The notes beneath the pieces are model-generated. The model saw nothing but the letters and a program-made list of their open reading frames with translations. It had not been told where the DNA came from and did not search any database. This document shows positions 5,132 to 39,849 of a stretch of 40,713 bases of DNA, in pieces. Numbering within the stretch: position 1 is the stretch's first letter; the number at the start of each line of letters is the position of its first letter. The position numbers and the translations under genes were made by a program. Origin of the DNA: Candidatus Gastranaerophilales bacterium (GTDB taxonomy: Bacteria > Cyanobacteriota > Vampirovibrionia > Gastranaerophilales > Gastranaerophilaceae); the NCBI GenBank assembly GCA_947626645.1, contig CANQSZ010000003.1, forward strand, positions 1 through 40,713, read 5' to 3'.

Positions 5132-5141
5132 AAAAATCAAA

Positions 5142-5162
5142 AGACCGGTTTATAACCGGTCT
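5142..5162. terminator. Bidirectional intrinsic terminator
   Basis: AGACCGGTT / AACCGGTCT stem flanked by A-rich and T-rich tracts; between convergent genes. Confidence 0.85.
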
Positions 5163-5171
5163 AAAATTTTC

Positions 5172-5181
5172 GTGTGAGTAA
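5172..5181 (-). repeat. 3'UTR arm (TTACTCACAC in mRNA sense) complementary to the 5'UTR of the same gene
   Basis: GTGTGAGTAA on + strand, pairs with the 5631-5640 arm over 9 nt. Confidence 0.6.
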
Positions 5182-5201
5182 CCATAGTATATTTATAAGT
5201 C

Positions 5202-5612
5202 TTAAATAAATAAATCCGCAAACGGTCCTTTGGGGTCTTGAATACGAGCAGCCACTGCGCTGTCTGTTACCGATTCCAACCCCGGAATAACTACCGTTTT
5301 TAATCCGTTTGTTACGCTTGCAACCTGTGCTGCCGTAACTTTGTAGGTATAACCTAAATCGGCAAGTATTGCGTTGGTCTCATCTGCCAAATCCTTATCT
5401 TCTGCCGTGAATTTACCTAACTTAACTCCGTAAAGACTCTGTGTGGATTTGGTCAATAAGTCCGTTTCATTTTCCAAACCCTTAAATTCTGTGCTACTTT
5501 TCTCAATTTCCTTTGATTCTTTTGATTTTTCGGCATCTTTTACATTTTGATGTCCTACAACAAGGTTGTAATTCTTATAGTTGCTGTTAAAATCATTAAA
5601 TTTAATTACCAT
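5202..5612 (-). CDS. Small hypothetical protein (136 aa), C-terminal GPFADLF motif
   Basis: SD aaggag 8 nt upstream of ATG; downstream terminator. Confidence 0.75.
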   Translation of the reverse strand: MVIKFNDFNSNYKNYNLVVGHQNVKDAEKSKESKEIEKSSTEFKGLENETDLLTKSTQSLYGVKLGKFTAEDKDLADETNAILADLGYTYKVTAAQVASVTNGLKTVVIPGLESVTDSAVAARIQDPKGPFADLFI

Positions 5613-5630
5613 TTTGGTACTCCTTGTACT

Positions 5631-5640
5631 TTACTCACAT
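5631..5640 (-). repeat. 5'UTR arm (ATGTGAGTAA in mRNA sense)
   Basis: TTACTCACAT on + strand just upstream of the SD. Confidence 0.6.
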
Positions 5641-5732
5641 GAGTATTTACGGCATAAGTTTAATAATCTTTAGTAAATTCTCAATTTTTTTCCAAATTTG
5701 TTACATTTGTTTACAATTCACAAAACCAAAAT

Positions 5733-5757
5733 AAAAGGTCGGATTGACCGACCTTTT
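5733..5757 (-). terminator. Intrinsic terminator
   Basis: Perfect 10-bp stem AAAAGGTCGG / CCGACCTTTT with 5-nt loop. Confidence 0.9.
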
Positions 5758-5759
5758 TA

Positions 5760-5772
5760 TATGTGAGTAAAA
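5760..5772 (-). repeat. 3'UTR arm (TTTTACTCACATA in mRNA sense)
   Basis: TATGTGAGTAAAA on + strand; exact reverse complement of 6198-6210. Confidence 0.65.
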
Positions 5773-5788
5773 TTTATAAACAAACAAA

Positions 5789-6181
5789 TTATGTATATAA
5801 TTCGGAAAATGGGGATTGTGATTTTTGCAGATGTTCTGCAACCGATTTACCGTCGCGAAGGACATACATGTAAGTATTTAAAGTTGAAGCTGCATTATTG
5901 GGGTCATTCAATGCAAAATTGCCATGCCATTTACCTAATTCCGGTGCAGCTTGCGCAAAGAATTCAACCGTTCCCGATGAGGGTTTTTTAATATCCAAAC
6001 CCATTACCCCATAGGGATTTTGTAAATCTAAATCTTTTCTTCCGACTTTATCATCATCAGATTTAAAACTAACCAGCTGAGTGGATTCAGTCTGTGATGT
6101 TGAAGTTGTTTTGTCGGGTTTGTGTACATTGTTAACGCCGTTAAAGTTTGTAAATGCACTGTTAATTCCATCTGGTATCAT
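5789..6181 (-). CDS. Small hypothetical protein (130 aa), C-terminal SPFSELY motif, possible distant paralogue of 5202-5612
   Basis: SD aaggag; C-terminus VAEHLQKSQSPFSELYT resembles VAARIQDPKGPFADLFI. Confidence 0.75.
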   Translation of the reverse strand: MIPDGINSAFTNFNGVNNVHKPDKTTSTSQTESTQLVSFKSDDDKVGRKDLDLQNPYGVMGLDIKKPSSGTVEFFAQAAPELGKWHGNFALNDPNNAASTLNTYMYVLRDGKSVAEHLQKSQSPFSELYT

Positions 6182-6197
6182 TTGTAAATCTCCTTTT

Positions 6198-6210
6198 TTT
6201 TACTCACATA
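6198..6210 (-). repeat. 5'UTR arm (TATGTGAGTAAAA in mRNA sense)
   Basis: TTTTACTCACATA on + strand immediately upstream of the SD. Confidence 0.65.
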
Positions 6211-6269
6211 CTCTTAAATTGTATGTTTCCTATTGTTGAATCATCCTAATATGATTTTCCATCTGTATA

Positions 6270-6300
6270 TATATAAAGTATTTATCGCTTAAATAATTGC
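6270..6300 (-). promoter_or_regulatory. Candidate promoter GCAAT-N18-TTTATATA
   Basis: Minus strand gcaattatttaagcgataaatactttatata. Confidence 0.5.
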
Positions 6301-14071: not shown

Positions 14072-15418
14072 TTAAATATCGACTCCTTCCATCATATCGA
14101 CAAGTTGTTTTATGGTGCCGTCCATTGTTACGCTGTCAGATGTTCTTTGCTGCAAGAAGGCATTAACTTTGGGCATCATCTCAATTGCGATATCAAGTTT
14201 GGGGTTTGAACCGGGTTGATACATACCCACATCAATCAGGTCTTTGTTTTCGCGATACATAGACATTATTGTACGAAGTTTTGCGGCGGCGGCTTTATGT
14301 TCCGGGGTTGCAATCGCGCTCATCAAACGTGAGATACTTCCTAAAACATCAATTGCGGGGTAGTGGTTTGATTCGGCGACTTTTCTTGATAAGAAAATAT
14401 GCCCGTCAACAATACCGCGGACAATATCGACAATCGGGTCTGAAATATCGTCTCCTTCCATTAAAACGGTGTAAAGAGCGGTGATAGAACCTTTCGGACT
14501 GTTTCCAGCACGCTCTAAGGCTTTTTGCAGCCATGAAAAAATTGATGGCGGATAACCTTTCATAGTCGGCGGTTCGCCCAATGATAACCCGACTTCTCGA
14601 CCTGCCATTGCACATCGGGTTATTGTATCGGTCATTAAAAATACTTTTTTCCCTTTGTCTCTAAAGTATTCGCAAACGGCGGTTGCCGTAAGGAGTGCTT
14701 TTTGCCTGATTAAAGGCGGCTGATCGCCCGTTGAACATACAAGAACCGATTTTGCCATGCCTTCTTCACCAAGCGAATCTTCAACAAACTCTTTAACTTC
14801 ACGTCCGCGTTCTCCGATTAGTGCAACGACGTTAACATCGGCATCGGAATTTCTTGCAATCATCCCGAGCAGCGTACTTTTACCGACTCCGGAACCCGCA
14901 AATAAACCCAAACGCTGCCCGCAACCCATTGTCATACAACCGTCAATCGCTCGAACTCCGGTTGAAAAAATTTCTGTTATAATCGGTCTTTCAAAAGGTC
15001 CCGGCGGAGGTCCTTCAATCGGGCGCCATGTGGCATCGGTTGTGTCTATCGGTTTTCCGTCAAGCGGATTTCCCAGCGGGTCTATCAATCTTCCGAGTAA
15101 AAAATCTCCGACGGGTACCGTTATCGGACGTCGGGTGGTTGTTACCAAACTGCCTTGTCCTATTCCGCTTCCGTCTAAAAGTAACGACAATTGCGCCACT
15201 TCACCTTTGAACGCTTGAACTTCTGCGGGTTTTTGTTTTCCGTCGTAGGTTTCTATATAGCACAAATCACCGATTTTTAACCCCGGAAGTTTTACCTCTA
15301 CCGTTAACCCCAAAAGTTTCGATACCGTTCCTTTATAAGAATACAGGCTCGTTTCGTCAAGTTTTTGCTTAACTTTTTGTTTTAATTCTTCTATACTGCT
15401 TTTGTCGATATCAACCAT
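14072..15418 (-). CDS. FliI/SctN-family export ATPase
   Basis: GLFAGSGVGKSTLLGMIARN Walker A; GERGREVKEFVED; YPPSIFSWLQKALERAGNSPKGSITALYTVLMEGDDISDPIVD. Confidence 0.93.
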   Translation of the reverse strand: MVDIDKSSIEELKQKVKQKLDETSLYSYKGTVSKLLGLTVEVKLPGLKIGDLCYIETYDGKQKPAEVQAFKGEVAQLSLLLDGSGIGQGSLVTTTRRPITVPVGDFLLGRLIDPLGNPLDGKPIDTTDATWRPIEGPPPGPFERPIITEIFSTGVRAIDGCMTMGCGQRLGLFAGSGVGKSTLLGMIARNSDADVNVVALIGERGREVKEFVEDSLGEEGMAKSVLVCSTGDQPPLIRQKALLTATAVCEYFRDKGKKVFLMTDTITRCAMAGREVGLSLGEPPTMKGYPPSIFSWLQKALERAGNSPKGSITALYTVLMEGDDISDPIVDIVRGIVDGHIFLSRKVAESNHYPAIDVLGSISRLMSAIATPEHKAAAAKLRTIMSMYRENKDLIDVGMYQPGSNPKLDIAIEMMPKVNAFLQQRTSDSVTMDGTIKQLVDMMEGVDI

Positions 15419-38367: not shown

Positions 38368-39849
38368 TTAGATTTCGCCTAAGCTGTCTATCTTAAACGT
38401 GCAGCCGATTTCTTCCTGCGCAAGCACTGTTATATCGTTTATGTATATTGATAACAGTGTGAAAAATATTTGCCTGTATTCCATCGGTACAATTAATTTT
38501 GGCGAATGGATATTTAATTTTTTCGATTTTTTAACGATTTTATCGGCAAGTTTTTCAGCGAGTGTTCCGTCAATTCTTATCATTGATTCTTCGGTATCAT
38601 CGCATCCTAAAACCATTTCGGTGTAAGTTTTTTCGGACAATTCAAATGCGCTGATTGTTTCGTTGTCAGTGTTTGTGTATTTGCGGCATATCTGTTTGGC
38701 AAGCGATAATCTTATTTTATTGAGGATGTCGCTTTTTGAACTGTCATCTGCATAATCGTTAATTTTTTCAAATAAGTACGTAATATTTTTTATCGACACT
38801 TTTTCTTTTATAAGGCTTGTCATCAAATATTTTATGTCGGCATAATTCAACACATCGGGAACGATGTTTTCGATTAAAAATTCGTTTTCCTTTTCAACCA
38901 CCTCAAGATATTTGTCGATATCTTCATAATCCAATAAATCATCAACGTATTTAATTGCAACGTATTCAAGAGCTTTTGCAATATATTCCGAGGGGGAAAT
39001 TCCTTGTTGCCAAAAATCTTTTGATTTATCTTTTTCAATCCAAACGGCTTTTCTGCCGGTTATTTCATCAATTACGTTAATTGAATTTTTTATTTTATGC
39101 TCGGTGTGAAGTTCGTCTGCGTAAAACATTACGTAATTCGGGCATACTCCCGCTCTGAAAACTTCCATACCTCTTATTCTTATGCTAAATTCGCAAGGAT
39201 TTAAGTTGTCATCGTCTTTGAATATAACTTTAGGTATCACATATCCGATTTCTTCGGTGAGTTTAATACGTGATTTTACGGTTTGTGCGATAAGTTCTTC
39301 TCCGGAATTGTCCCTATCGGAATCCACAAACCCGAGTAATTCCTCGCTTAAATATATGGTCAATTTTTCTTCGTGTAATTTTGAATACATTAAATCAGGC
39401 GAAGTTGCTTTTGTTAATTGACTTTTTAAGTCCTCAAGTTCTTTTAATCCCGCTGAAATTTTGTCGTTTAATCTTTTTCTTGAAACGGAATTTGCCGTTT
39501 CCGCATCAAGTGCCGATTTAATCTTGTTGATTTTTTCTTTCTGATGTCTTATTTTTGACTGAATTTCAAGACAGGTTTCGTATTCTGTCAGTTTTGGAGA
39601 AAGCATTTTCTCCATTTGGCTTTTGAAATCGGAAATATTAATTATATCAGATTCGGAATTGTTTTCGGATTTAGCCTGACGCATAAAGATGCAGTTAAGT
39701 TCTGACCCTGATTCTTCATCTCCGATGTCGTGCATGCTGTATAATTCCCATCCGTTCATTGACATTTCGTTCAAAAGATTTTGCAATTCCTGAGCGTTGT
39801 CTGCCGAACAGGTTTTTATAACATATTCCATTCTGTTTTTACCGAACAT
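38368..39849 (-). CDS. Hypothetical protein, N-terminus resembling DUF4177, long uncharacterised C-terminal region
   Basis: MEYVIKTCSADNAQELQNLLNEMSMNGWELYSMHDIG; SD aagga. Confidence 0.6.
   Translation of the reverse strand: MFGKNRMEYVIKTCSADNAQELQNLLNEMSMNGWELYSMHDIGDEESGSELNCIFMRQAKSENNSESDIINISDFKSQMEKMLSPKLTEYETCLEIQSKIRHQKEKINKIKSALDAETANSVSRKRLNDKISAGLKELEDLKSQLTKATSPDLMYSKLHEEKLTIYLSEELLGFVDSDRDNSGEELIAQTVKSRIKLTEEIGYVIPKVIFKDDDNLNPCEFSIRIRGMEVFRAGVCPNYVMFYADELHTEHKIKNSINVIDEITGRKAVWIEKDKSKDFWQQGISPSEYIAKALEYVAIKYVDDLLDYEDIDKYLEVVEKENEFLIENIVPDVLNYADIKYLMTSLIKEKVSIKNITYLFEKINDYADDSSKSDILNKIRLSLAKQICRKYTNTDNETISAFELSEKTYTEMVLGCDDTEESMIRIDGTLAEKLADKIVKKSKKLNIHSPKLIVPMEYRQIFFTLLSIYINDITVLAQEEIGCTFKIDSLGEI

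Follow-up and report, generated by a model that had tools for sequence, protein, structure and literature searches.

To our knowledge, base pairing in cis between the 5' and 3' UTRs of a bacterial mRNA has been described for only a few individual genes. In the Bacillus subtilis hbs mRNA (Braun et al. 2017), as outlined in PMC7821165 and PMC8406224, a 5'/3'-UTR pairing of ~14 nt shields an RNase Y site and stabilises the message. In the Staphylococcus aureus icaR mRNA, an anti-Shine-Dalgarno UCCCCUG motif in the 3' UTR blocks the Shine-Dalgarno (SD) sequence and recruits RNase III (PMC3868564). A review of the field points out that these 3' UTRs lack conservation between species, and raises the question of whether other genes use the mechanism (PMC7821165). 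Here we describe two neighbouring genes, and their many relatives, in which short complementary stretches ("arms") lie shortly before the SD sequence and shortly before the terminator.

Two small-protein genes with complementary UTRs

The window (the whole stretch of DNA analysed, 40.7 kb) comes from a Gastranaerophilales bacterium with an assembly of 155 contigs and 1.6 Mb; its genus includes Candidatus Gastranaerophilales Zag_111 together with MAGs from ruminant and other guts. The two genes, here called A and B, and the elements around them are as follows, with SD sequences, arms and terminators located from the sequence itself:

5202-5612, minus strand: gene A, 136 aa; N-terminal half predicted to be disordered, C-terminal helices, C-terminus GPFADLFI
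5620-5625, minus strand: SD sequence AAGGAG of gene A
5630-5640, minus strand: 5' arm of gene A, ATGTGAGTAAA (ATGTGAGTAA at 5631-5640); predicted mRNA 5' end
5647-5672, minus strand: sigma-28 (FliA)-type promoter of gene A, TAAA-N15-GCCGTAA; sole match to this pattern in the window
5191-5201, minus strand: conserved 3' UTR box (G)ACTTATAAAT, upstream of the 3' arm; present in most A-type genes, in several genera
5173-5181, minus strand: 3' arm of gene A, TTACTCACA (TTACTCACAC at 5172-5181)
5139-5161, minus strand: intrinsic terminator of gene A (GACCGGTTATAAACCGGTC + TTTT)
5789-6181, minus strand: gene B, 130 aa; fast-evolving paralogue of gene A
6190-6195, minus strand: SD sequence AAGGAG of gene B
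6198-6211, minus strand: 5' arm of gene B, GTATGTGAGTAAAA (TATGTGAGTAAAA at 6198-6210)
6253-6263, minus strand: short leader hairpin GAT-GGAAA-ATC of gene B; recurs in B leaders, as AGATGAAAATCT in other genera
6265-6300, minus strand: conserved upstream element of gene B, GCAATTATTTAA..AAATACTTTATATATATAC; probable promoter
5759-5772, minus strand: 3' arm of gene B, TTTTACTCACATAT (TTTTACTCACATA at 5760-5772)
5733-5757, minus strand: intrinsic terminator of gene B (AAAAGGTCGGTCAATCCGACCTTTT)

As originally observed, the arms are exact complements over 13 nt in gene B (14 with one G.U pair) and over 9 nt in gene A, and a terminator lies directly 3' of each 3' arm, the arm being roughly 8-15 nt before the terminator stem. 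The complementarity exceeds chance. Four copies of the 9-mer TGTGAGTAA are present in the window, where 0.21 are expected; all four are the arms, and this count was reached in none of 100 shuffles of the window. When 5'UTR-3'UTR complementarity was scored for the 40 window ORFs of at least 120 aa, genes B and A took the top two places with 29.5 and 21, compared with 19.5 for the next ORF and a mean of 15.6. Across the host genome, the 9-mer was not enriched (13 copies versus 15 for a reversed control), so it is not a general repeat; its resemblance to a conserved stretch of 16S rRNA (GTGAGTAAC) we take to be coincidence. An Rfam scan of the region returned nothing near the gathering score.

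The proteins of genes A and B matched no Pfam or NCBIfam family above cut-off, and a fold search with the predicted structure of the gene A product (mean pLDDT 62.7) matched no known fold (best PDB match, E 4.9). Several proteins match both A and B, which are divergent paralogues, and many A and B proteins end in a (G/S)PFA(D/E)LF-like motif. Gene A homologues were found in 45 of the 147 genomes searched, the host included, all within the host genus; one of these genomes (G005) has a divergent paralogue only and was left out, leaving 44 A genes for study, namely that of the window and its orthologues in 43 other species. Gene B evolves faster, with BLAST matches in 19 genomes; extra genes in the B slot were found by their 5' element alone (TGTGAG-N-AGGAG-N-ATG), and their proteins, of 88-170 aa, are dissimilar. 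At L169-L179, a conserved leader and 3' UTR surround dissimilar B-slot proteins, which suggests that the coding part evolves very fast or has been replaced.

Predicted transcript ends

The original prediction presupposed that the 5' arm is transcribed. In gene A, this arm lies 6 nt past the -10 element of the sigma-28-type promoter, which is the predicted +1. With the T of TGTGAG as the reference, the 44 A orthologues have TAAAG at -33..-30 and GCCG at -14..-11, and 42 genes of other genera have a similar promoter, with CCGAT, at the same spacing from the arm, as measured with a promoter position profile. Given the usual geometry of sigma-28 promoters, A-type transcripts would start at, or one base before, the T of TGTGAG. 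The promoter position thus places the 5' arm inside the predicted transcript, and in A-type genes at its very 5' end; because the 3' arm sits just before the terminator, the two arms would lie near both ends of the mRNA. The sigma-28 pattern TAAA-N15-GCCGATAA is found in A-type genes only, and B genes have a different upstream element. The B-type leader (6253-6300 in the window) also has several GGA motifs, and a GCAATTATTT element similar to that of the B leader is found upstream of unrelated genes (L185, L186). For the 3' UTR box ACTTATAAAT, no pairing partner was found in the 5' UTR; pairing of its CTTAT with ATAAGG before the SD in A genes of the genus was considered and dropped, as other genera keep the box without a 5' match.

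These flanking elements bear on one of the alternatives raised at the outset, that the arms are the inverted ends of a mobile gene cassette. Similar flanks do surround dissimilar B-slot proteins, at different places in some genomes. However, conservation continues outside the arms, through promoter, leader and terminator, gene A is orthologous throughout the genus, and no target-site duplication was seen when the sequence was first inspected; we find a cassette origin scarcely credible.

Conservation and decay of the arms

The arms are a real conserved feature. Within the host genus, both arms are found, changed slightly at most, in 39 of 44 A genes, and a paired 5' and 3' arm is present in 41 of 42 B-slot genes, the 3' arm being missing from the other (L178). 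Eleven other genera have the pair too, on small proteins that can barely be aligned. It takes the form of a family-wide pair of tags, with (A)TGTGAGTAAA on the 5' side a short way ahead of the SD and TTTACTCACA on the 3' side immediately ahead of the terminator. The presence of the arms in orthologues, on which the original prediction depended, is thereby borne out.

A profile search brought up remote homologues in four further genera, all of them with arms. The pattern of 5' arm plus SD, searched in 239 family genomes, matched in 99 of them, with few matches for a reversed control, and at the matching loci that were read, in the eleven other genera, TTTACTCACA precedes the terminator in nearly all. 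When 3' regions of 111 A-type and other-genus genes were compared, TTTACTCACA was exact in 80 and present with one mismatch in 23 (103 of 111), against 0 exact and 1 with one mismatch in shuffled 3' regions; at the other-genus loci, 5' arms had been picked by sequence and 3' arms had not. Elsewhere in the class, outside the family, the 5' arm pattern occurred at background only.

In one clade of four genomes (G003, G006, G020 and G025), decay of the two arms is coupled: gene A has lost its 3' arm, and its 5' arm has decayed as well, to TGTAAGTAA in three genomes and TGTGAGTGA in the fourth. Speaking against an RNA helix, the gene A of G019 keeps its 3' arm alongside a broken 5' arm. Natural variants of this kind, including genes in which both arms are lost, make the mechanism directly testable. 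Two (partial) tandem copies of the 3' arm were seen in 3' UTRs of genus g38, L122, L236, L237, L260, L261 and L275. Two further TGTGAGTAA/TTACTCACA pairs, 1086 bp apart in G002, were judged to be a duplicate around an apparent duplicated pseudouridine-synthase-like gene, and not an instance of the present element.

Pairing in cis, its alternatives and known systems

Complementary stretches are thus present in the 5' and 3' UTR of one predicted transcript, its limits being those expected from promoter and terminator, and we regard a cis helix between the two UTRs within one mRNA as the best explanation of the arms and, on balance, a probable one. In B genes, 22 cells are changed on both sides of the helix compared with 9.8 +- 2.4 in shuffles that ignore phylogeny (1/500), and the covariation score of 0.095 was reached in 0/500 shuffles, a slide of -2 giving a similar 0.089. 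Each B 5' arm pairs better with its own 3' arm than with swapped ones (10.75 bp versus 9.88 bp; permutation p 1e-4, phylogeny ignored). In B genes, upstream and downstream pairing trade off (rho -0.61, p 3e-5, n=40) at a total of 9-14 bp, such that the length of the B helix is kept while its register shifts. Some arm changes give G.U pairs (G011, L243, G035). Pairing extends upstream of TGTGAG in B genes and not in A genes, that is, only where RNA is predicted to exist. We counted this in favour of an RNA helix, together with the coupled decay of both gene A arms in one clade and the recurrence of the arms on proteins that hardly align. The A-type core hardly varies, and there is therefore no covariation in A genes (permutation p 0.88). 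Covariation between the arms, for which the original prediction suggested looking, is thus limited, being seen in B genes and not in A genes, and the prediction is supported in part, with pairing within one mRNA as the best explanation. When 145 full mRNAs were folded, the core pairs were predicted with P>0.5 in 141 (0.99 and 0.9997 for the window genes), a consistency check only; the high probability comes in part from the perfect duplex, and ribosomes are ignored.

GTGAG is more invariant, both inside genera and from one genus to another, than pairing alone would require, and a sequence-specific partner may also be involved in A-type genes. Alternatively, the arms might not act as RNA and might instead be paired DNA sites: a DNA-binding protein would recognise (A)TGTGAGTAA at +1 and its inverted copy ahead of the terminator, and might loop the gene. 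The invariance of the A-type core without covariation agrees with this, as does the operator-like fixed distance of the 5' arm from the sigma-28 -10 element. Yet the B arms covary and shift register at a kept pairing length, the flanks of the A and B arms differ per genome and match their own partner (34/35, in part reflecting the descent of two classes), further sites are not enriched in the genome, and no known promoter lies close to the 3' site of gene A; paired DNA sites therefore seem unlikely to us.

On average within genomes, cis pairing (AA 9.3, BB 10.5) is longer than cross pairing (9.0 bp for 5'A-3'B and 7.9 bp for 5'B-3'A), even with the cis values lowered by mis-anchored rows for G023, G029 and G038; cis exceeds A/B cross pairing in 34 of the 35 genomes, which in part reflects two inherited classes. 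The longer cis pairing, and flanks that follow their own gene in B genes, argue against pairing in trans, in which the 3' end of one mRNA, perhaps as a 3'UTR-derived sRNA with the terminator, would bind 5' arms elsewhere, on other copies, the paralogue or additional genes. The common GTGAG core nevertheless permits the cross pairing just given, a terminator and U-run come after each 3' arm, as they do in 3'UTR-derived sRNAs, and in several species a YtxH-like gene carries ATATGTGAGT ahead of its SD but lacks a 3' arm. Overall, we hold trans pairing to be decidedly unlikely. The ATATGTGAGT of this YtxH-like small-protein gene (L309, L310, L311) could pair in trans with B 3' arms.

The 5' arm might also be kept for some other reason, such as a 5'-terminal start-stop AUG-UGA mini-ORF, with the 3' arm a separate 3'-end signal: ATG TGA is present in nearly all 5' arms, with TTG TGA in a few A genes. 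But some B genes without it (TACGTGAG, TTAAGTGAG) still pair over 10-11 bp, and the exact complementarity of the 3' arm would be left unexplained, which makes such a signal very improbable.

If the arms do pair in cis, they would be the two strands of a long-range RNA helix joining the 5' leader to the mRNA's own 3' UTR, right before the terminator hairpin. A start from the sigma-28 promoter at the arm itself would leave the extreme 5' end of A-type transcripts base-paired, and in B genes the arm would lie deeper in the leader, adjoining the SD. The stretch complementary to the core 3' arm lies upstream of the SD, so that in nearly all genes the SD is outside the helix. The helix would keep end-dependent or leader-cutting ribonucleases away from the 5' end or the leader and, its 3' strand being found on complete transcripts only, full-length mRNAs alone would be stabilised, as in hbs. 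We favour protection over repression because the base-paired 5' end and the leader helix most resemble hbs, and consider a protective role plausible, somewhat short of probable. An effect on translation, positive or negative, is possible.

The sigma-28 promoters also set these genes in a wider context. In the host genome (G000), a flagellin N-domain search detected no flagellin, and FliA (TIGR02479) is over cut-off. Among the 239 family genomes, 229 have FliA above the cut-off and 238 have an FHIPEP (FlhA/SctV) protein. The strict 5' element ATGTGAGTAA..GGAG..ATG occurs in 85 of the 239, and a flagellin N-domain match is absent from 84 of these, the single match (G077) resembling a chance hit in a reading frame; the genomes without the element divide into 92 flagellin-positive and 62 flagellin-negative (Fisher p 6e-23, phylogeny uncorrected). 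That lineages lacking flagellin have kept a sigma-28 factor suggests a regulon that has yet to be described. The window also encodes two relevant proteins:

14072-15418, minus strand: FliI/YscN-family ATPase
38368-39849, minus strand: FlhA C-terminal-domain protein, without the membrane part

A sigma-28 regulon and export-apparatus proteins, together with the lack of flagellin, suggest that the small A and B proteins could be exported products. A more speculative and rather improbable reading is a portable module that would lock mRNA ends by means of fixed tags (AUGUGAGUAAA / UUUACUCACA), with a dedicated duplex-binding factor probably recognising them in addition to base pairing. The tagged mRNAs would belong to a sigma-28 regulon put to new use in gut Cyanobacteria that have lost the flagellum and keep FliA and a type-III-like export apparatus, of which the small, fast-evolving products may be substrates.

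Among known systems, icaR shares long-range pairing of 3' and 5' UTR in the same mRNA (PMC3868564), whereas here the 3' strand is not on the SD, and the arm lies upstream of an SD that is free. In S. aureus RNAIII, too, a short helix joins both UTRs of a small-protein mRNA, but RNAIII is also a trans-acting regulatory RNA and a single locus (PMC7821165). The sigma-28-dependent UTR-derived small RNAs of flagellar systems, as presented in PMC10578931, likewise combine a sigma-28 regulon with UTR-based RNA regulation; those are small RNAs that pair with other mRNAs, and the present host is without detectable flagellin. As in hbs, the 5' and 3' UTR of one mRNA would pair, but hbs is a single gene with a 3' UTR reported not to be conserved in close relatives (PMC7821165), whereas here one arm pair extends over many genera and genes of little similarity, and coincides with the +1 predicted for sigma-28 promoters. 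In the present case conservation is family-wide, and a single fixed sequence is shared by many different small genes.
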